DNA of 64,000 bases, taken from positions 1 to 64,000 of the forward strand of contig PAAG01000014.1 of the NCBI GenBank assembly GCA_002698785.1. Direction: 5' to 3'. The translations under genes and the position numbers were made by a program. Position 1 is the stretch's first letter. Each line of letters opens with the position of its first letter. The DNA comes from Verrucomicrobiales bacterium. GTDB taxonomy: Bacteria > Verrucomicrobiota > Verrucomicrobiia > Verrucomicrobiales > DEV007. Below the pieces are notes generated by a model. The model searched no databases. It saw only the letters and a list, made by a program, of their open reading frames with translations, and was not told where the DNA came from. Positions 12,354 to 22,910 of the stretch are shown here, piece after piece.

Positions 12354-13433
12354 TTACGATTCTTCAGCGGCAGGAAGGGGGACCACATCGTCCCCAGACG
12401 TCCTCATTTCTACCTTGTCTTTCTTCAGCGGATTGGGACCAAACAATCCAGCCCGGCTTTCCACCGATTCGCTGGCAGAATCGAGTGCGTTCAAGCGCTC
12501 CTGGGCCTTGGAAGCCCACGGAGTGTTGGGATTTTTCACGACCTCACGATAGTAAAGGCGTGCCGACACTGGCTTACCGCTTTTCTCGTAAAACATGCCA
12601 GTGTCATACATTTTCTTCATCGAACGCTCCTCAATATCATCGAGGTTACTCTTAATCTCCATGGCACGCTCATCTTCTGGGTTTTGACTCACGAAATCCA
12701 ATCCAGCTTCCACCTGAGCGCGGTCCTGATTCGGGCTGTTCGAATTTTCTGCTTTTACTCCTCGTAGCTTGAAAATCTCGTATTGAGCTTCTGTTGCAAA
12801 TTTCGTCCCTACGTAGGTGTCTACAACCGTCTGGAATGAAGAAATCGCTTTGTCCTGTTCGCCTTGCTCAGTGTGCACGTAGCCGATGTTCAGAAGCGAC
12901 CGTGGCGCAAATTCCGTATGCGGAGCGGATTCGCTGATCGATGTGAACATTTCGATCAACTTGGACGGCTGGATAGCCGCACCGATTCCAAACAATCCCT
13001 TGCGATCCGAATTCCGAAGCTTGTCTGCGATACTGAACTGACGCTGCAAAACTTCGCTAAACCCGGGGTAATTCGGGTAATTGGAAATCAGCTCTTCGTA
13101 TTCCTCAAACGCTTTACGGCCTTCGCCCTCAGCTTCAAGCATCCGCCCGTAGCCGAATTTTGCTTCTGCAGCAGCAGTGGTCCGCGGATAGGAACGGGCA
13201 ACAGACTTGTAGGTATCGCGAGCCTGGCGTCGTTTTCCAGCTGATTCGTAATTCTTCGCTTTCTGCAGCAGAGCGTCCGCAGAGCTTTCCTGGTTTGTGA
13301 GCTGCTCAGCATTCAACACACGTTTTTCTTCGCCGCGGTTCAAGACCTTGTCGAAAATTGAAGCGTGGAGGGTTGGAGCCAAGCCGGCTCCAACGAGGAA
13401 AGATCCTATCAGGAGTGGGCAAATTCGTGTCAT
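12354..13433 (-). CDS. BamD-like exported TPR protein
   Basis: A 359-residue protein with a signal peptide (LLIGSFLVGAGLAPTLHA) but no lipobox cysteine. After a short linker come TPR units of the BamD/YbgF type: ALLQKAKNYESAGKRRQARDTYKSVARSYPRTTAAAEAKFGYGRMLEAEGEGRKAFEEYEELI is split over two repeats near residues 55-118, with more repeats around 180-215 and 270-315. Proteins like this act in outer-membrane barrel assembly or as Tol-Pal-associated periplasmic scaffolds. Lack of the lipid anchor distinguishes it from classical BamD, so the assembly role is inference. The C-terminus is low complexity. It has its own terminator and faces the accessory island on its 5' side. Confidence 0.75.
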   Translation of the reverse strand: MTRICPLLIGSFLVGAGLAPTLHASIFDKVLNRGEEKRVLNAEQLTNQESSADALLQKAKNYESAGKRRQARDTYKSVARSYPRTTAAAEAKFGYGRMLEAEGEGRKAFEEYEELISNYPNYPGFSEVLQRQFSIADKLRNSDRKGLFGIGAAIQPSKLIEMFTSISESAPHTEFAPRSLLNIGYVHTEQGEQDKAISSFQTVVDTYVGTKFATEAQYEIFKLRGVKAENSNSPNQDRAQVEAGLDFVSQNPEDERAMEIKSNLDDIEERSMKKMYDTGMFYEKSGKPVSARLYYREVVKNPNTPWASKAQERLNALDSASESVESRAGLFGPNPLKKDKVEMRTSGDDVVPLPAAEES

Positions 13434-13952
13434 CGTAAAAAGTGGGGTTTTGCTTGGTTGGGAGGATTCAACGTATTCATGTGCAGCCAGCGTTCAAATC
13501 CGAATTCCCGGTGAGAATATTCTGACCGGGATTTTGTTAAGTTTTTGAAATGAAAAAAATGGAGGTGGGTAAAATGTTGGAGTTCCTAAACTGCCGGGAT
13601 TTCCAAAGATTCCATGTGGAACGTTTCAAGGTGCGAAACACTGGCTGGTAGAATCAGATGAGATCCTGAATGCTGGAGAAAACTCTGTGATCTCCAACTG
13701 TTGTAAATAACCAACAACGTCTGCGCACCAGAGATTCTTAGACCGAGCTTTCAGGAATAATGGCTCAAAATCTGTGCAGCTCATAAACCCAGGCCCAAAT
13801 CCCTTGGCACACCGGGCCCTATGCATAACTTCCAACAATATATTCGGTTGGTATGGAAATTATCAATTCCTCCTAAGGGAATATTCGCAGGGGAGAGAAC
13901 CCGCACTGCAATGGGCCATAATTAAAAATCCCGAATTTCTTATAAGATCGCA
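13434..13952. other. Intergenic start of the accessory island
   Basis: About 520 bp, AT-rich near 13820-13950. It contains repeat copy A and, on the reverse strand from about 13838 to 13626, an open stretch of about 70 codons. The predicted peptide (PLFLKARSKNLW, ADVVGYLQQLEI) looks like a gene remnant, not a working gene. No promoter or RNA gene is recognised. Confidence 0.5.
13825..13899. repeat. Island direct repeat, copy A
   Basis: Begins ATAACTTCCAACAATATATT and ends TTCGCAGGGGAGAGAA. By eye it is about 80 percent identical to copy B over about 75 bp, in the same orientation. It lies 53 nt past the stop of the 13953 gene. CCAAC and GTTGG within it form an inverted pair, and outer arms GGCCCTATGC (13816-13825) and GCAATGGGCC nearly pair. 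Confidence 0.8.
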
Positions 13953-14438
13953 TTAATCGTCCTCAACATAAATTATTGAGCCGAGGTCATCATCACTCGA
14001 CCAAGTATCCGGAATCCACTCGGTCGGATTACGCATGCATTCTACAAAGCCGTCATAATCCTCTCGCTCAACAACCATCACCTCGAAGACATCTTCGATC
14101 CAATCCCTGCAATACGTATCATCATGAAAGAAGCCCGCCGGGTATCCATGAATTGCTTCCTGTTCTACGGTATTATCAGAAGGAATCCCAATGAGATCTA
14201 AAGCAATATCGAGCAACGACTCGTTTCCGAGGGTGTGTCTGTCCAGCTCAACGCCAGCATCAGAAAACCGGCGAAATTCTAAACGTGATGTTCGAGCCAG
14301 CCTGAGCAAGTACTTCACCAGATCGAATAGACCACGTGCAGGATCCTCGCGTGCCAAGCTTCCCATCCAAGAAGGGTCTTTAGGATGTGGAATGTTTTTT
14401 CCATTAAACAAATTGCTGTGATGAAGCCTAAGCGTCAA
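13953..14438 (-). CDS. Unknown acidic protein (island cargo)
   Basis: Up to 161 codons. The frame opens with TTG at 14438 (a TTG at about 14411 or an ATG at WMGSLARE are alternatives), with no good ribosome site. Visible features are a helical part (FDLVKYLLRLARTSRLEF, about 38-55) and a very acidic C-terminal half (EDVFEVMVVEREDYDGFVE, then SSDDDLGSIIYVEDD). It has no signal peptide or membrane segment. Small acidic cytoplasmic proteins of this type are common as immunity proteins or cassette cargo, but no family is recognised and no toxin lies beside it. Repeat copy A follows its 3' end. Confidence 0.6.
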   Translation of the reverse strand: MTLRLHHSNLFNGKNIPHPKDPSWMGSLAREDPARGLFDLVKYLLRLARTSRLEFRRFSDAGVELDRHTLGNESLLDIALDLIGIPSDNTVEQEAIHGYPAGFFHDDTYCRDWIEDVFEVMVVEREDYDGFVECMRNPTEWIPDTWSSDDDLGSIIYVEDD

Positions 14439-14507
14439 AAAGAAGCGGAATCCTCAAGCCATCTTTAGAAAGTTACCCCAATGGACACTGTCGCGATATC
14501 ATTCTAT

Positions 14508-15005
14508 TCAGAGTTCCAAATCATCAAATGACTTTTTGAGCTTTGCCTGCCGCTGCGCCTCAAGCTTCTGCTCTTCCAAACTCTTCTTCGCTCTCTCCTC
14601 AACCTGATTACGAGCATATTCAAAGACATCTTCTCTGCCGCTAGAATAACTCTCGTTTGCGCTTATTATTGCTTCCTTCGCGGAATCGAAAACCCTCTTG
14701 ATGTCCTCTTGATTCACCGTAACAAGCAAGTCGGAACCTCTAAAATCGACCACATCCAGTTCATAGCCAAAAGAATCATGAAATAATGCCCTCCATACAG
14801 GGTCAGTTACGCTGTTAAGTTTAAAACGATACTCTACCGTTTTATCCTCTCTCTCTGAATATCCATCCTTCGCAGTGATGACAATTGGCGGTCGTTGCAT
14901 AACTGCATTGGACCGCCTCATGTTGGAAAGGGAATAAATTACTCCGTCATCTATCGTCAGTTGGATATACGGTTCGTCTTTTAAAAGGGTTTCGAGAGCA
15001 GTCAT
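14508..15005 (-). CDS. Unknown protein with C-terminal coiled coil (island cargo)
   Basis: A 165-residue protein from ATG 15005. The N-terminal two thirds look like a compact alpha/beta domain (PYIQLTIDDGVIYSLSNM, PPIVITAKDGYSE, GYELDVVDFRGSDLLVTVN). The last 50 residues are a charged helix or coiled coil (RNQVEERAKKSLEEQKLEA, RQAKLKKSFDDLEL). There is no signal peptide. No family is recognised. It lies between an attC-like site (5' side) and the 13953 gene (70 bp on the 3' side), all on one strand. Confidence 0.65.
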   Translation of the reverse strand: MTALETLLKDEPYIQLTIDDGVIYSLSNMRRSNAVMQRPPIVITAKDGYSEREDKTVEYRFKLNSVTDPVWRALFHDSFGYELDVVDFRGSDLLVTVNQEDIKRVFDSAKEAIISANESYSSGREDVFEYARNQVEERAKKSLEEQKLEAQRQAKLKKSFDDLEL

Positions 15006-15078
15006 TGAGTTGGAACGAATTGAGAAACTTTAGTTTTCAGAACACAGATACCTCGAATACCTGACCGAAGCAATCTCC

Positions 15079-15195
15079 AGCCAACGGTTAAAGTGGGCCA
15101 GTCACTACGTAACGTCGACTCTGATTTTATTGTTTGATACTTTCCGCTTCTGACTCGAGCGCGACAGCAGGTTGGCCCACGCCGCCTTGTTGGGT
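15079..15195. repeat. attC-like integron recombination site
   Basis: The plus strand reads AGCCAAC, 7 nt, GTGGGCCA, about 72 nt, TGGCCCAC, 8 nt, GTTGGGT. The 8-bp inner arms are perfect complements, the outer 7-mers differ at one position, and the spacers between them do not pair. This is the R''-L''-L'-R' plan of attC sites, with GTTGGGT fitting GTTRRRY; the reverse strand gives ACCCAAC, fitting RYYYAAC. The 117-bp size is in the attC range. No integrase gene is present in the window. Confidence 0.6.
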
Positions 15196-15219
15196 ACGTC
15201 TTGTTCTGCCGTTTTGGTT

Positions 15220-15468
15220 TTATTGATCGCTGTCCCAAGCTGGAATCCGAATACAATTATTTTCTAGTCCGGATATCTTCTTTAGAATTTCTGGAGGATT
15301 GCCATTTGAGAACCGAATGACAAGATTGTAAACCAGTCCATCACTACTTTCATTGGTGTCGACATCGTAGGAGAGTTCACAAATTTCATCGTAGGTAATC
15401 CCTAGTTCCTCAGCGAGTCTTCTATCCCAATCTTCCTGCTGATTTTCTTCGAGTTGTCTATTGCTCAT
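15220..15468 (-). CDS. Small unknown acidic protein (island cargo)
   Basis: An 82-residue protein from ATG 15468 to TAA 15220. It has a helical acidic N-terminus (EENQQEDWDRRLAEELGI), then TYDEICELSYDVDTNESSDGLVYNLVIRF, a strand pair typical of small two-layer alpha/beta proteins, and a short tail. No signal or membrane segment is present. Its look (short, acidic, solitary, ending just 25 bp before an attC-like site) is typical of integron cassette genes, whose functions are mostly unknown. No named family is claimed. Confidence 0.65.
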   Translation of the reverse strand: MSNRQLEENQQEDWDRRLAEELGITYDEICELSYDVDTNESSDGLVYNLVIRFSNGNPPEILKKISGLENNCIRIPAWDSDQ

Positions 15469-15886
15469 AATCTGTTTCTAGTATCCTGATAAGGCCCCAT
15501 TTTGCATCGGAGCCACCTGCAACGGGGTCACTCCCAGATTCACTTTCTCAGACGACGTACGAACTGGGCTACCAACGTAGCCGTGGAAGGCACACAGGAA
15601 ACAAGAAATATCGAAACTAGCGATTAGACGGCGAATTATCTCATTTTTTCAGAACAGTATTGATCAGCGATTTTCGAAGCAAGTTCGCTGCATCACCTTG
15701 CTTTCCAGAATCGAGTTTACCGACCAGGGGAGTTCAGCGTCAGGCCGATTGCACTGAAACTGTCGGTCCCAACCCGCGTTATTTAAGACATCTTAATAAC
15801 TTCACACAATATATGTGGCTGGTATGAAAATTATCACTCCCTCCTAGAGGATTATCCGCAGGGGAGAGAATCGAAATTGAGCTGGC
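15469..15886. other. Intergenic interval with repeat copy B and hairpins
   Basis: About 420 bp without a supported gene. It holds a perfect 6-bp hairpin GGCTAC-CAAC-GTAGCC (15567-15582), a near-perfect hairpin GTTATTTAAGA-CA-TCTTAATAAC (15778-15800, one bulge) that runs into repeat copy B, and an inverted pair ACCGAC/GTCGGT. No RNA family or promoter is recognised. Confidence 0.55.
15796..15870. repeat. Island direct repeat, copy B
   Basis: Begins ATAACTTCACACAATATATG and ends ATCCGCAGGGGAGAGAA. Same orientation as copy A and the clearest full copy. It lies 16 nt past the stop of the downstream SEFIR-type gene. On the reverse strand it carries CTAGGAGG, a perfect Shine-Dalgarno-like core. 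Confidence 0.8.
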
Positions 15887-16648
15887 CTAAAGTGATATAA
15901 TACCACGATCATATAAATATTGTTCTCCGGAATCCGTAACCGAAACAGTCCTAATTTGACCAGCGCCGTTGTAATTCGGAAAAAGGAGCCCCTCGTCAAA
16001 TGCTACTCTCAAATATCTCTCAAACGTAAATTTGTGGAACTTAGTAACGGTTAAAAGGTCAATATAACTGACGTATTCATTAGCTGATTTTTCCAGCATT
16101 TTAGCGACCGCGACCATAATTGAATGCACACCGTCTGCAGCTCTATCAGGCCGGGAATGCTGGAGGGGACGAAATGGATCCTTACCAATTTCTGGTTTTT
16201 CATAGAGCGGTGCATCAAGAAGCGTCCGAAGCAGTTCATCGAGAGCGAATTCCATTTCAGAGTCTTCCGAAAAATCAACGTAGAGCTTAGATTTCAAAAA
16301 GGTAGGCGTCGCTGGTTCTCCCTTTTCCCGAATAATTGGAATCACTCTATTGTCCGAAATCGACGTCAAAGATGCCGCACTCATAATCATCTTCTCGTAG
16401 CCGACACCTCCAGTCCCTGCGTTTGCTTTCTGCACATAGTTTCTGGTGCAAACCATGACCGCAAAATCACAGCTGGCGAGATTCGTCTCCATGAAGTGCC
16501 CCAAGTCGTCACCTGGTCTCAAGTCCCATTGGTCAAGAATTGCATCTACACCGCGATTTCGAAGCGTGGTCGCAAAGTCCAGCACCCAACATTTATGTTC
16601 CGCTGAGTCATGGGAATAGGAAACAAATACACGAGGCGGTTCAATCAT
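15887..16648 (-). CDS. SEFIR/TIR-type domain protein, copy 2
   Basis: About 253 residues from ATG 16648. The N-terminal domain (about 5-150) is a SEFIR/TIR-type fold: RVFVSYSHDSAEHK, RGVDAILDQWDLRPGDDL, CDFAVMVCTRNYVQKAN, GGVGYEKMIMSAAS with glutamate at 85, and LYVDFS. The remainder (about 165-253) looks like a small helical domain. SEFIR/TIR domains in bacteria are often NAD-cleaving effectors of antiphage systems or mediate assembly. Activity here is inference. It is a tandem duplicate of the gene at 16738. The first 160 residues are nearly collinear, while the C-terminal 80 residues diverge strongly. Similar leader sequence before both starts shows that the duplication included the 5' region. 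Repeat copy B follows its 3' end. Confidence 0.8.
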   Translation of the reverse strand: MIEPPRVFVSYSHDSAEHKCWVLDFATTLRNRGVDAILDQWDLRPGDDLGHFMETNLASCDFAVMVCTRNYVQKANAGTGGVGYEKMIMSAASLTSISDNRVIPIIREKGEPATPTFLKSKLYVDFSEDSEMEFALDELLRTLLDAPLYEKPEIGKDPFRPLQHSRPDRAADGVHSIMVAVAKMLEKSANEYVSYIDLLTVTKFHKFTFERYLRVAFDEGLLFPNYNGAGQIRTVSVTDSGEQYLYDRGIISL

Positions 16649-16701
16649 CTGGATCGAACATATTAGAGCAAAAATAAAAAGCCAACCTCGATACAATTTT
16701 T

Positions 16702-16728
16702 AAAGGAACATCCGCAGGGGCGAGAATC
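16702..16728. repeat. Island direct repeat, partial copy D
   Basis: AAAGGAACATCCGCAGGGG followed by CGAGAATC matches the right-hand part of copies A and B. It lies 9 nt past the stop of SEFIR-type copy 1. The left-hand part is missing or too diverged to see. Confidence 0.65.
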
Positions 16729-16737
16729 TTTCATGCG

Positions 16738-17505
16738 TCAAAGGGGGGGGATGCGCCCAATAATTTCATCATTCAAAAGATAGTCCCTCCCCGCCAATGT
16801 TAATCTAATTTCACCGTTATTGTGTACTAAAAGGCCTTTCTCCAAAGCCGCGAGGAAAAACGTCTCCGTCGTGATGGGATGGGCAGTCGACGCGCCAATC
16901 AAACCTTCTCGATCAATATAATCGACATTCTGCAACCGAAGGGCGTTCTCATAAGCGACGGAGAAAGCCCTCATTATTAACCGAATTCCATCTGACGCCC
17001 TGTCAGGATGAGCCTCACCGAGCGCACGAAACGGATTTGAACCAATCTTTGGCTTCTCATATAGAGGTGCATTGAGAAGAGTTCGTATCAGTTCGTCTAA
17101 AGCATACTCTTCGTTGATCTCTGGCGAAAAATCGATGTAGAGCCTCGTTCCCAGAAATGTTGGTGTCAATGGCTCACCTTTCTGTCGAATAATCGGAATC
17201 ACCTTACTATCGGATATCGATTCCAAAGACGCTGCACTCATGATCATCTTTTCATATCCAACGCCGCCAGTTCCAGCATTTGCTTTCTGAACGTAGTTTG
17301 GAGTGCAAACCATAATCGCAAAATCGCAGCCCACGAGATTTGTCTCCATGAAGTGACCCAAATCTTTGCCAGGTTTCAAATCCCACTGGTCAAGAACAGC
17401 GTCGACTCCACGATGCCGAAGCGTGGTCGCCAAGTTGAGCACCCAACCTTTATGCTCTGCAGAGTCGTGAGAATAAGAGACAAATACGCGAGGTGGAACA
17501 GCCAT
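16738..17505 (-). CDS. SEFIR/TIR-type domain protein, copy 1
   Basis: About 255 residues from ATG 17505 (MAVPPRVFVSYSHDS). The SEFIR/TIR-type domain spans about 5-150 with RGVDAVLDQWDLKPGKDL, CDFAIMVCTPNYVQKAN, GVGYEKMIM (glutamate 85) and LYIDFSPE. A conserved hinge follows (YEKPKIGSNPFRALGEAHPDRASDG), then a C-terminal domain of about 80 residues unlike that of copy 2 except for the pattern of a GLL turn and a terminal G-YLL stretch. A longer frame to 17565 exists, but homology with copy 2 and the ATG position favour the shorter form. There is no signal or membrane segment, so the protein is cytoplasmic. It is probably a defence or signalling effector by family, unproven. No Thoeris- or CBASS-type partner gene is adjacent. 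Confidence 0.8.
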   Translation of the reverse strand: MAVPPRVFVSYSHDSAEHKGWVLNLATTLRHRGVDAVLDQWDLKPGKDLGHFMETNLVGCDFAIMVCTPNYVQKANAGTGGVGYEKMIMSAASLESISDSKVIPIIRQKGEPLTPTFLGTRLYIDFSPEINEEYALDELIRTLLNAPLYEKPKIGSNPFRALGEAHPDRASDGIRLIMRAFSVAYENALRLQNVDYIDREGLIGASTAHPITTETFFLAALEKGLLVHNNGEIRLTLAGRDYLLNDEIIGRIPPL

Positions 17506-17563
17506 CTTGAGCCAACATATTGGAGTCTCAACAAAAAGCCAATCTTCACATGCTTCACAGAAC

Positions 17564-17594
17564 AACCCTTACATATTTGTTAAATATCAGGGTT
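17564..17594. repeat. Long inverted repeat upstream of SEFIR-type copy 1
   Basis: AACCCT-TAC-ATATTT-GTT-AAATAT-C-AGGGTT: outer arms AACCCT/AGGGTT and inner arms ATATTT/AAATAT are perfect. It lies about 60 nt before the SEFIR copy 1 start and 5 nt from repeat copy C. It could be an operator, a leader hairpin or part of the repeat unit. Confidence 0.6.
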
Positions 17595-18109
17595 CTCCGA
17601 TAACTTCCGACAATATATGTAATGTGAAATTTAGAATACCCTTGTTCTGGCGGGGGTTCCCCTCGCTTTGAGATGCCTGAGAGGTGTCGCTCTTTTATTG
17701 TGTGCGGGCACATCGAAGTTCTGTCGTGAGTTGATTCTTGTGATGGTTTCCAGATGCTGCCTTTCGCGTTCCTACCAGATTTTGTCGAGAGCTTCTCGAC
17801 GAACGTGCGTTCGACGAAATTGCTCGGTCATGTCTAACGGCGTCTTCTGATCTTCACGGCGCATCGATCACTCCCACGAACACGGCCGGAGTTGTTTTCG
17901 TCGCGTTGTGCTTCGTGAGTATGTTGTGTAGAGGAAAATTCGAAAGCTGTTCATCCGTGAGTGGTTTTTCCATTCATTTGAATCTGAGAGGTCTTACGGC
18001 CCGAGTGTTTGTTTCTCTGCTGGACCAGTATTCCAATTTCGCTTGCGGAGGTATGTTCGCCGCCCCTATTGCTGGGAGTCGGTCACGTAGTTTCTATCTA
18101 GCCATCCAG
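17595..18109. other. Structured non-coding interval between SEFIR gene and DUF2726 gene
   Basis: About 515 bp without a convincing gene; short open frames on the plus strand look random. Hairpins seen: GCGGGGG-TT-CCCC-T-CGC (17651-17667), GTCGAGA-GCT-TCTCGAC (17784-17800), and an alternative CGACGAACG/CGTTCGACG (17797-17816) sharing bases with the previous one. A plus-strand terminator follows at 18110. It may be a decayed cassette or a structured leader or small RNA. Confidence 0.5.
17600..17625. repeat. Island direct repeat, diverged copy C
   Basis: ATAACTTCCGACAATATATG followed by TAATGTG matches the left part of copies A and B in the same orientation. The right-hand part is not clearly present. 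It marks the 5' side of SEFIR-type copy 1. Confidence 0.6.
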
Positions 18110-18137: not shown

Positions 18138-18599
18138 ATGCCGGATGTTCTTACAGCTCTTTCCGAGAAATTTAAGGAGAATGCTCTCTGGATAATTCTT
18201 CTCGTATTCGGTATTCAGTTTATCACATTGCTCTTCAAGAAGCGATCTCGTCAAGGTTCTGGACGGTATGTTTCCCGTGAACGATTCATGACTGATCGTG
18301 AGCAAGAATTCTTCCTGACTCTCAATGAGGTCATCCGAGCCCCTTTTCGGGTTTTTGCGCAAGTTCGGATCGCTGACGTGATCTCTGTCTCCGGTAACGA
18401 TATTTCAGCATTCAATCGGATCTCTTCGAAGCATGTCGATTTTGTCATTGTCGACAAGTCATTCGCAGTCGTGTGCTGCATTGAACTTGATGATAAATCT
18501 CATGATTCAAAAAAGCGTCGAGAGCGGGATAAGTTTGTCGATTCTGCCTTCCGTCAAGCCAAAGTTCCTTTAATTCGGTTTCGTAACAACCTATCATAA
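18138..18599 (+). CDS. DUF2726 protein with N-terminal membrane helix
   Basis: A 153-residue protein. One membrane helix lies near the N-terminus (about 17-33, ALWIILLVFGIQFITLLF), then a DUF2726 domain. The domain has REQEFFLTLNEVI at its start, FAQVRIADVIS, SKHVDFVIVD and CIELDDKSHDSKKRRERDKFVDSAF. The pattern of D (in HVDF) and E-x-D (IELDD) fits the restriction-endonuclease-like (PD-(D/E)XK) fold to which this domain is generally related, so nuclease activity is possible but not shown. The ATG at 18138 lies right behind a terminator and has no ribosome site. An in-frame ATG at about 18288 would remove the helix. It is the only plus-strand gene of the island. Confidence 0.75.
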   Translation: MPDVLTALSEKFKENALWIILLVFGIQFITLLFKKRSRQGSGRYVSRERFMTDREQEFFLTLNEVIRAPFRVFAQVRIADVISVSGNDISAFNRISSKHVDFVIVDKSFAVVCCIELDDKSHDSKKRRERDKFVDSAFRQAKVPLIRFRNNLS

Positions 18600-19109: not shown

Positions 19110-22100
19110 ATGAACCACCACATGCTTGTTTCCTTTTGTTTTCGAAAACGTAGTTCCGCTACGCTTTTTGGAGCGCTTCTTTTGTCATTGGTCGCGAGCC
19201 ATTCCGTTACCGCCGAGGAAGTAGAGTTGCTTACCTCTGAGCCTTTGCTGGAGTCAAAAAATAATCCTGCAGTCGAGACCCTGTTCGAATCTCTGAAGCC
19301 TGAAAAGACGGGAATCGATCATGTTTCTCCTATTATCGAAGATCATCCGCTGGCGCGAGCTTACCATTCTTCTTCTGCGTGCGCGGCTGTGGCCGTTGGC
19401 GACCTGGATCTGAATGGTCTCCCTGATGTGTTCGCCGGGAACGGTCCTCTTGAGAATGGCCTCTACCTGCAGGAGTCCCCTTTTCAGTTTACAAATGTGA
19501 CGAAGGAGACAGAAACGGGCGGCGGAGAGTCGTGGGCCGTGGGGATATCCATGGTCGATATCGACAACGACCGCGACTTGGATATTTACGTCTGCAATTA
19601 CGACTCTCCGAATCAACTCTTTATCAATCTGACGATCGATGGAGGAAAGAAAACGGATGGTCCGCTGCGATTCAAAGAGCGTGCCGCTGAATTCGGGCTG
19701 GATGTGAACGATGGCTCTGTCGTTCCTGCCTTCGCTGATTTCGACTGCGATGGCGACCTCGATCTCTACATTCTGACTCACCAGGTCTATCGCGACGGCG
19801 GGCGTCCTTCCGGTCCGATCCGCATTATTGAAGAAGGAGGAGTTTTCAAAGTGTCCGAGGAGTGGCAGCGCTGGTATGAGGTCGACCAGTACAAGCGCGG
19901 AGATAATGGTGAGTTCCTGTATACTGAGGCAGGTCGCCCTGACTACTTTTTCCGGAACGATGGCGACGGCAAGTTTGTTGAAATCACCGAGGAAGCTGGC
20001 ATCACGAAAGAGCGTCACTGGGGAAACTCTGCCACGTGGTGGGACTACAACTACGATGGCTGGCCTGATCTCTATGTGGGCAACGACTTCCGGAGCCCGG
20101 ACTTCCTCTATCGTAATAATGGCGATGGCACATTCTCGGAAGTGACAGAGAAGCACGTGCGTCACACAACCTGGTTCTCCATGGGTGCGGTGCAGTCGGA
20201 TCTAAACAACGATGGCTACATCGATTTCCTGCTCGCTGACATGATGCCCAAGACGCACTACATGCAGATGGCTTCCATGGCCTCGATGGCGGATCGACAG
20301 GATAACCTTGAACACGTGGATGGTGCGCAGCAGATCATGCACAACACGATGCATATCAACACAGGCACAAACCAGTTTCTCGAGGGTGCCTGGATGGCTG
20401 GCGTCGCCCAGACGGAATGGACATGGGCGATTCGCAGTGCTGACTTCGACAACGACGGCCTGCCGGACTTGTTTTTCTGTAATGGCATCCCCCGCCAGTT
20501 CAACCACTCCGATTTGCCGGAGATCACTCACTCAAGCCTTGTCGGTAAAACTCACTGGGATCACTACAAGGGCACTCCGGTCCGGCGGGAACAGAATCTC
20601 GCCTACAAGAACAAGGGTGACTTTGAGTTTGATGATGTTTCCAAGGAATGGGGCCTCGATCACATGGGAATGTCTTACGGCGCTTCACTCAGCGATCTGG
20701 ATGGCGATGGCAAGCTTGAGCTTTTGACCTCCAATCTGGACGATCCGCTCAGCGTCTATCACAACCAGGGCGATTCCGGCAATCGGATTGTAATCGACCT
20801 CGTCGGCACACGAAGCAATTCGTACGGGATTGGCACACTGGTCACCATTGAGACCGAAGATGGTGTTCGCCAGAGTCGCCAGCTATTCCCCTACGGCGGG
20901 TTTCTCGATGCCGATGAGCCCATTGTCCATTTTGGATTGGGTGACAATTCTTCTATCTCGAAAATGACTCTGGAATGGCCAAGCGGTGAATTTCAGCAGT
21001 TTGCGAATCTCGAAGTCAATCGACGCTACAAAATCACTGAACCGGATACGGGAGCCAAGAAATCGCCTCCTGTGACCGATCGCGAGGTGGAGTCCACCTG
21101 GTTTGAAGAATCCCCCAGCCTGAAAGGATTTGGGCATAAGGAGTTGCCTTTTGACGACTATGATCGTCAGCCCCTTCTCCCATTTAAAATGTCCCAGCTT
21201 GGTCCTGGACAGGCTTGGGGAGATATTGACGGAGATGGTGATCCTGACTTTTTTCTCGCTGGCGCAGCCGGCCAGCCCGCACAGGTTTTTCGCAATAATA
21301 CCAGTCCGGGATCTGAGGACGTGTTGCTGACTCCTGAGCCACAGTATGTTCTGGAGGAGGATGCGCACTTCGAAGACATGGGTGGGTTGTTCTTCGACAT
21401 TGATGCAGACGGAGATCTCGACCTCTATGTCGCGAGTGGCGGTGTGGAGTGTCAACCCGGGTCAGATGTGTTGAAGGATCGCATCTACCTGAACAATGGT
21501 AAGGGAAGTTTTTCTCGCGCTCCGGAAGGAACCCTGCCTGACGCGATGAATAGCAGCGGGACCATTTCCGCTGCTGATTTCGACCGAGACGGCGATCTTG
21601 ATCTCTTTGTCGGGTCCCGTTCCATCCCCGGACTCTACCCTCTCACTCCCGTGAGTTCCCTGTATCGAAACGAAGGAGGGAAATTGATCGACGTGACCAA
21701 GGAGATTGCGCCAGGACTCGTCGAGCCGGGTATGGTAACCAGTTCGTTGTGGACAGACGTCAACAATGACGGATGGATCGACCTGATGCTCACGACCGAG
21801 TGGGGACCGATACGACTTTTTGTGAACCACGAAGGTACGTTTAATGAAGAGACTGAGGCTGCGGGGCTATCAGGCTCGGGCATTGCTGCTCTGGGCTGGT
21901 GGTATGGAATCGCCGGTGGGGATATCGATAACGATGGTGACATGGATTATGTCGCTACGAATATGGGGCGTAATTCTACCTATAATGCTCGCCTCGATTC
22001 TCCTGAGCTAATTTTTTTCGGGGATTTCGACGATTCAGGCAAATCTCATATCGTAGAGGCCAGGTTCCTCGAAGAAAACGGGGAGAAGATCTGTTATCCT

Positions 22101-22910
22101 CGTCGTGGCTTTATGACATCGAGCGGTGCCATGCCATATATCGCGGACAAGCTGCAGACGTTCGACAACTACGCACGGCTGCCCCTGTCAGGGATCTACG
22201 ACATAGAGAAGCTCCAAGATTCCAAGCAGTTCGTTGCAAACAATATGGATTGCACCCTCCTTCGAAATGATGGCACTGGGAAGTTTGAATTCATCTCCCT
22301 GCCTCACCTTGCACAGACGTCTCCGGGATTCGGAGTCGTGCTTCGTGATATTGATCTTGATGGCCTGACTGATTGCTATTTTGTGCAGAACCACTTTCAT
22401 ATCACTCTGGAACAAGGTCGTCTCGATGGTGGATTGAGCACCCTGCTCAAAGGCACAGGGGATGCTGACGAACCATTCCAGTTTATCTGGCCTCACGAGA
22501 GTGGACTGGTGGTGCCGGGCGATGCCAAGAGCCTGGCTGCAGTTGACGTCAATCTCGATGGCTGGGAAGACTTCGTTGTCGGAGTGAATGACGAAGATCC
22601 GAAGATTTTCGTAAATACCCTTGCAGAAAAATCCGCCAATCACCCCTTTCGGGTCCGATTGTCCGGACTGCCCGGTAACAAATCTGCGGTTGGCTCGCAA
22701 GTAACGGTCAACGCGGGAGATTTGGCACCACAGACCGGAGAAGTAGTCGCCGGAGGAAGCTACCTTTCTCAGTCCAGTTCGGATCTCATTTTCGCAATCC
22801 CGAAAGATTCTGAAACGCCGATTACTGTCACGGTTCGCTGGCCTGACGGCAAGACCAGTAAATCGGAGGCGGAGTCTGACGCCCAGTTTCTGGAAATAAA
22901 CAGAGACTAA
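19110..22910 (+). CDS. Giant exported FG-GAP/VCBS-repeat protein with two UnbV (ASPIC) domains
   Basis: A 1266-residue protein with an N-terminal signal sequence (ATLFGALLLSLVASHSVTA). Many FG-GAP/VCBS calcium-binding motifs are visible, such as DLDLNGLPDVF, DIDNDRDLDIYVCNYD, DFDCDGDLDLYIL, DLDGDGKLELL, DIDGDGDPDFF, DFDRDGDLDLFVG and DLDGLTDCYF, predicting integrin-like beta-propellers. Each half ends in an UnbV/ASPIC-type domain (about 558-650 and 1178-1260, VGSQVTV and TVRWPDGK in the second). The family resembles CRTAC1-like proteins. It is probably exported and calcium-binding, and may bind glycans or proteins; the exact role is unknown. Its TAA overlaps an ATG of the following di-haem peroxidase frame, so the two are probably co-expressed. 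Confidence 0.9.
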   Translation: MNHHMLVSFCFRKRSSATLFGALLLSLVASHSVTAEEVELLTSEPLLESKNNPAVETLFESLKPEKTGIDHVSPIIEDHPLARAYHSSSACAAVAVGDLDLNGLPDVFAGNGPLENGLYLQESPFQFTNVTKETETGGGESWAVGISMVDIDNDRDLDIYVCNYDSPNQLFINLTIDGGKKTDGPLRFKERAAEFGLDVNDGSVVPAFADFDCDGDLDLYILTHQVYRDGGRPSGPIRIIEEGGVFKVSEEWQRWYEVDQYKRGDNGEFLYTEAGRPDYFFRNDGDGKFVEITEEAGITKERHWGNSATWWDYNYDGWPDLYVGNDFRSPDFLYRNNGDGTFSEVTEKHVRHTTWFSMGAVQSDLNNDGYIDFLLADMMPKTHYMQMASMASMADRQDNLEHVDGAQQIMHNTMHINTGTNQFLEGAWMAGVAQTEWTWAIRSADFDNDGLPDLFFCNGIPRQFNHSDLPEITHSSLVGKTHWDHYKGTPVRREQNLAYKNKGDFEFDDVSKEWGLDHMGMSYGASLSDLDGDGKLELLTSNLDDPLSVYHNQGDSGNRIVIDLVGTRSNSYGIGTLVTIETEDGVRQSRQLFPYGGFLDADEPIVHFGLGDNSSISKMTLEWPSGEFQQFANLEVNRRYKITEPDTGAKKSPPVTDREVESTWFEESPSLKGFGHKELPFDDYDRQPLLPFKMSQLGPGQAWGDIDGDGDPDFFLAGAAGQPAQVFRNNTSPGSEDVLLTPEPQYVLEEDAHFEDMGGLFFDIDADGDLDLYVASGGVECQPGSDVLKDRIYLNNGKGSFSRAPEGTLPDAMNSSGTISAADFDRDGDLDLFVGSRSIPGLYPLTPVSSLYRNEGGKLIDVTKEIAPGLVEPGMVTSSLWTDVNNDGWIDLMLTTEWGPIRLFVNHEGTFNEETEAAGLSGSGIAALGWWYGIAGGDIDNDGDMDYVATNMGRNSTYNARLDSPELIFFGDFDDSGKSHIVEARFLEENGEKICYPRRGFMTSSGAMPYIADKLQTFDNYARLPLSGIYDIEKLQDSKQFVANNMDCTLLRNDGTGKFEFISLPHLAQTSPGFGVVLRDIDLDGLTDCYFVQNHFHITLEQGRLDGGLSTLLKGTGDADEPFQFIWPHESGLVVPGDAKSLAAVDVNLDGWEDFVVGVNDEDPKIFVNTLAEKSANHPFRVRLSGLPGNKSAVGSQVTVNAGDLAPQTGEVVAGGSYLSQSSSDLIFAIPKDSETPITVTVRWPDGKTSKSEAESDAQFLEINRD

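Follow-up and report, generated by a model that had tools for sequence, protein, structure and literature searches.

Solitary attC sites are often omitted from annotation as likely false positives. A single attC with an integrase neither near it nor found in the genome has been termed a SALIN (PMC12690207), clusters of at least two attC sites without intI are known as CALIN (PMC9024848), and a complete integron has intI beside an attC array. Elements of the IMEX type are found at dif; the attachment sites of TLCphi and GGI keep the XerC side and the centre of dif, and their XerD side has diverged (PMC5357621). Xer-flanked resistance modules have been described mainly in Acinetobacter (PMC7399989). 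Cassettes have also been reported to enter attG sites away from any integron (work cited in PMC12444791 and PMC11023631); the report for E. coli is cited in PMC12444791.

The locus described here lies in a 64-kb stretch of a draft genome (the window, to which all coordinates refer unless a contig is named). As in a SALIN, it has one attC, with an integrase neither near it nor found in the genome, and a cassette-type gene lies just upstream of the attC; unlike a SALIN, the site is nested in an insertion bounded by Xer/dif sequences. It shares with CALIN an attC without intI, and clusters of that kind occur on other contigs of the host genome, but there is one attC here rather than two or more; an intI beside an attC array, as in a complete integron, was not found in the draft genome. 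Like IMEX elements of the TLCphi or GGI type, the insertion sits at the chromosomal dif, has dif-like ends in which the XerC arm and centre are conserved and the XerD arm has diverged, keeps a complete dif at one edge, yielded no recombinase gene, and is absent in relatives, and the host has XerC-like and XerD-like genes; it differs in that its modules are tiny (1.8-2.0 kb) and without phage, replication, or conjugation genes, and in having an attC and a repeated common end behind its genes. The Acinetobacter modules are likewise small sets of genes with Xer sites at their ends, but the sites here are direct-oriented and at the chromosomal dif. Two island genes, putatively of the bSEFIR defense type, score about 250 bits against its model (PADLOC PDLC03957), although they cover only part of the 412-position profile.

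The sequence-only reading had described an attC-like inverted repeat with outer boxes AGCCAAC (15079-15085) and GTTGGGT (15189-15195), perfect 8-bp inner arms within 117 bp, and a small gene on either side, all of which we confirmed in the sequence. Its R''-L''-L'-R' layout also stood, read on the minus strand, but its spacers of 7 and 8 nt did not: allowing for two G-T pairs and one extrahelical C shortens both to 5 nt, and in this corrected register the site has the usual attC layout, with 10 L pairs and the extrahelical C after pair 2. The site and its neighbors are made up as follows, with the basis of each assignment in parentheses.

15079..15195, minus strand: attC site, 117 nt (covariance model R1, described below)
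15189..15195, minus strand: R'' box ACCCAAC, with adjoining spacer AAGGC at 15184-15188 (box counts in native sites and relaxed search)
15173..15183, minus strand: L'' arm GG(C)GTGGGCCA, the C extrahelical (relaxed architecture search)
15091..15100, minus strand: L' arm TGGCCCACTT, with spacer TAACC at 15086-15090 (relaxed architecture search)
15079..15085, minus strand: R' box GTTGGCT (compared with 108 related sites)
15220..15468, minus strand: 82-aa open reading frame, cassette gene ahead of the attC (position and strand)
14508..15005, minus strand: 165-aa open reading frame, next gene beyond the attC (open reading frame list)
15767..15773, minus strand: candidate upstream cassette edge GTTGGGA (our reading of the letters)

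The outer boxes ACCCAAC/GTTGGCT are paired at six of seven positions and contain the invariant AAC...GTT; native attC sites have between zero and five R''/R' mismatches, with a mode of two. The L arms lie in a register one position away from the commonest, and the AACAAGGCG and GAGTC stretches of native sites are kept. One outer base off consensus had earlier been counted as a doubt about the site; that doubt falls away, since a C occupies R' position 6 in 32 of 108 related sites, which makes GTTGGCT ordinary for the clade, and only 10 of the 108 R' boxes fit the consensus GTTRRRY.

Native attC sites were first recognized in two arrays from the genus, where they stood out as direct repeats. 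A covariance model, R1, was built from 28 aligned attC sites (genus, family, and order) drawn from a relaxed search of the regions beside relatives' integron integrases, with 15079-15195 left out. A strict GTTRRRY/RYYYAAC scan of integron loci had yielded few matches because this clade uses other outer boxes, and Rfam had no match at 15079-15195. The 28 native sites covary strongly: 90.4% of their R/L helix cells are paired, compared with 29-45% in slid-partner controls, and 88 cells changed on both sides, compared with 6-20 for slid partners. In the 64-kb window, 15195-15079 was the sole significant R1 match (31.5 bits, E value of 4.9e-6; runner-up, 10.6 bits); the site was returned at an E value of 5.3e-4 genome-wide and, when the island was searched with filters off, of 4.4e-7. 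R1 also recovers many sites in relatives' arrays, the best of which reach 90-107 bits, so that 31.5 bits is a modest score. The nearest native attC is 62% identical over the full length of the site, with an alignment score of 95, and 30 shuffles scored at most 60.5. By itself, the architecture criterion is weak, with 8 candidates in the window versus about 2 in shuffles, and folding energy, which was no better than that of shuffles, was rejected as evidence for attC or for module ends. By its sequence, then, 15079-15195 on the minus strand is a genuine integron attC.

The covariance model orients the attC on the strand of both adjacent genes, and its R'' box starts 24 nt downstream of the stop of the same-strand gene at 15220-15468; the two belong together as one integron gene cassette. 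The 82-aa protein matches the C-terminal portion of plasmid hypothetical proteins of about 300 aa, with about 48% identity across 61 aa; a pattern search of genome contigs and viral contigs found no relative, and its structure model (pLDDT 65, middling) had no PDB match at an E value of <0.001. The 165-aa protein had no Pfam, PADLOC, or NCBIfam match and no relative in 74 other family genomes, and its structure model is poor (pLDDT 49). As a weak guess, GTTGGGA at 15767-15773 could be the second edge, which would give a cassette of about 690 bp; about 0.25 matches of this type are expected by chance.

The window holds no intI, as the sequence-only reading had stated, and this extends to the whole draft genome, where nothing exceeds the TIGR02249 cut-off (top match, 81 bits; cut-off, 265) and the two best matches are XerD-like and XerC-like proteins. 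The assembly is 95.9% complete with 4.97% contamination in 60 contigs, and an intI could be absent from the assembly rather than from the genome. Because no integron integrase was found in the genome, the cassette is stranded, immobile unless an integrase is supplied. An attC covariance search of the genome, which had been proposed as the check on the site, gave at an E value of <0.01 not only the match at 15079-15195 but 12 further attC sites (13 in all), most of them in clusters, on five other contigs.

C24, 40462-46811: other attC sites, no intI detected
C5, 38741-40629: other attC sites, no intI detected
C50, 23572-24604: other attC sites, no intI detected
C22, 227094-227769: other attC sites, no intI detected
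C49, 28439-28564: other attC sites, no intI detected

For C50 (780 kb) and C22 (408 kb), whose clusters are well inside the contig, a contig end does not explain the missing integrase. An integron integrase above the TIGR02249 cut-off is present in 107 of 387 phylum genomes and 36 of 75 family genomes, and in the genus an intI match at an E value of 1e-40 or better was obtained for 22 of the other 33 genomes. Within the genus, attC sites occur in 30 of 34 genomes, with up to 99 per draft genome, and several have attC without an intI match.

The stretch around the cassette is bounded by dif and dif-like sequences, which we observed as one complete site and two partial copies.

13828..15798: module A, 1,971 bp, with the common end, 161-aa and 165-aa genes, the attC, and the 82-aa gene (repeats D2-D4)
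13825..13901, plus strand: module end, a dif-like core and about 50 bp ending CGCAGGGGAGAGAA
13828..13855, plus strand: dif-like left junction ACTTCCAACAA TATATT CGGTTGGTATG, XerD arm diverged, at the native dif position
13953..14438, minus strand: 161-aa open reading frame (open reading frame list), no family match in the libraries searched
15799..17602: module B, 1,804 bp, with two bSEFIR-type genes (repeats and dif-like ends)
15799..15826, plus strand: dif-like internal junction ACTTCACACAA TATATG TGGCTGGTATG, XerD arm diverged
15887..16648, minus strand: bSEFIR-type gene 1, SEFIR/TIR domain (PADLOC bSEFIR, 251 bits; Pfam TIR_2 and SEFIR)
16738..17505, minus strand: bSEFIR-type gene 2, paralogue of gene 1 (PADLOC bSEFIR, 245 bits)
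17603..17630, plus strand: complete dif ACTTCCGACAA TATATG TAATGTGAAAT, occurring once in the genome

The full 28-mer of dif is unique in the genome, and three direct copies of its XerC half within 64 kb arose in 0 of 100 shuffles. The copies at 13828 and 15799 keep the XerC arm and centre, with 2 mismatches in 17, and with their diverged XerD arms are candidate Xer sites; the host recombinases, XerD-like on C24 and XerC-like on C41, both score just under the equivalog cut-offs. Of 20 relatives, 19 have a single dif, located to the same side of the TPR orthologue (none was seen in the other, L135); it is a 28-bp intergenic sequence which we take to resemble B. subtilis dif. In 18 of these 19 relatives, the palindrome TTCCATGTGGAA precedes dif by 86-296 bp, and in the window it stands at 13607-13618, 218 bp ahead of the 13828 copy; the native dif was therefore at 13828, and about 3.8 kb has been inserted. 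The palindrome might perhaps serve the terminus as a site for protein binding; the window's GC skew was too weak to confirm a terminus at 17.6 kb. The genes flanking the island, TPR (12354-13433) and FG-GAP (19110-22910), are adjacent in five relatives with no such genes between them, the modules are absent in the 19 relatives with one dif at the same place, and the island has a G+C content of 0.45-0.46 compared with about 0.51. To the right of dif, outside the modules, there is a DUF2726 gene (18138-18599, plus strand), which is not in the relatives' short intergenic regions. Elsewhere in the window, a TPP riboswitch was recognized at 1667-1759 on the minus strand (Rfam RF00059, 73.3 bits).

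The module end, about 75 bp of which is shared, is repeated behind the island's minus-strand genes: it recurs at 15796-15872 and, in a form lacking its dif core, at 16701-16728; module B may therefore be, and probably is, two fused units. Neither the 74 other family genomes nor the viral contigs contained the module end, and its pattern had six matches across all genome contigs, in unrelated organisms and at about the chance expectation; across the family genomes, genome contigs, and viral contigs searched, the module was seen in this one genome only. The motif TNCGCAGGGGNGAGAANC on contig C22 has one mismatch and lies within apparent coding sequence, and was taken as chance. Repeats D2-D4 were considered as further attC sites and rejected using R1 with filters off. 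Since 19 of the 20 relatives have one dif and none of the modules, the island resembles a tandem of Xer-inserted modules of the IMEX type at dif.

Both genes of module B are of predicted anti-phage type. They have 76% identity over a 300-nt stretch, and their matches to the PADLOC model are partial (38-245 and 35-213 of 412 positions). Neither has an attC after it. Among all the loci compared, one in another genome of the phylum holds a clear bSEFIR relative of about 49% identity, which (L067, 4826-5566, minus strand) has an attC-like end before it and an 83-nt site, GCATAAC...GTTATGC, after its stop, and lies with an integron integrase within one 20-kb region that also holds several transposase-like genes; a bSEFIR-type gene thus occurs as a cassette in the phylum.

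Taken with the position of the attC, we consider it likely that an attC cassette was placed by an integron integrase inside a 3.8-kb dif insertion built by Xer recombination. We infer an order of events in which circular modules would have integrated at dif through the host XerC and XerD, leaving the complete dif on the right and giving head-to-tail modules with dif-like Xer ends. An integron integrase, in the present or an earlier host, would have inserted the attC cassette in module A, where a secondary, attG-like site may have served as target; acting on the folded bottom strand, the enzyme would have moved the cassette as a circle.

It is possible, though rather unlikely, that an integrase instead put the cassette straight into the island or chromosome at an attG site and that it arrived independently of the dif copies. 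Non-integron insertion at attG has been published (cited in PMC12444791 and PMC11023631), and the one-base R''/R' difference is as expected if the target supplied R', but there is no empty target, as no relative has module A without the cassette. Insertion at attG is also compatible with a cassette delivered into the Xer-built island and may be one of its steps.

We think it improbable that an integron array once stood here and lost its intI and all its attC sites but this one, with the dif-like copies arising from later rearrangements. Such a history would fit the several other attC clusters without detected intI in the genome, the intI in other genomes within the genus (22 of 33), and the attC-flanked bSEFIR relative elsewhere in the phylum, as the island genes could be old cassettes. 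However, even a filters-off search of the island gave no second attC, the ends that recur behind its genes resemble dif rather than attC, the insertion starts at the relatives' dif position, and relatives have no integron at the corresponding place. The earlier suggestion that the site belongs to an integrase-less cluster or its remains is unsupported on the same grounds, the lack of a second island attC and island boundaries that are dif-like.

We give little credence to the idea that the three dif-like copies stem from a dif region duplicated in place rather than from Xer integration. The modules do have the 75-bp end in common and two of the genes are paralogous, but exactly the XerC arm and centre are kept, the XerD arm is replaced by module-specific sequence, and lower-G+C genes of unknown origin lie between the copies. 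It is very hard to credit that the inverted repeat is an intergenic hairpin formed by chance or something resembling a terminator: its folding energy is not above that of shuffles and the architecture alone arises by chance at low rates, but this reading is largely refuted by the R1 match at 4.9e-6 and the 62% full-length identity to a native attC, which shuffles fall far below, together with the conserved AACAAGGCG and GAGTC stretches.

With the cassette read as lying inside an Xer-built insertion, the locus offers a solitary attC supported by a clade-specific model in a genome without a detected integrase. It is a doubtful but conceivable further step to regard the dif locus as a cassette array of its own, in which single-gene modules, each with the same end of about 75 bp behind its gene, would be stacked by the host XerC and XerD and one would hold a true integron cassette; the stacking of modules at dif by Xer might then, tentatively, be likened to the stacking of cassettes at attI by IntI. 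If that were so, gene cassettes would pass between integron and Xer systems. An attC within an Xer/dif stack that also holds bSEFIR-type genes suggests that the two separate recombination systems can trade small cassettes, which makes dif in these bacteria a defined place to look for more.
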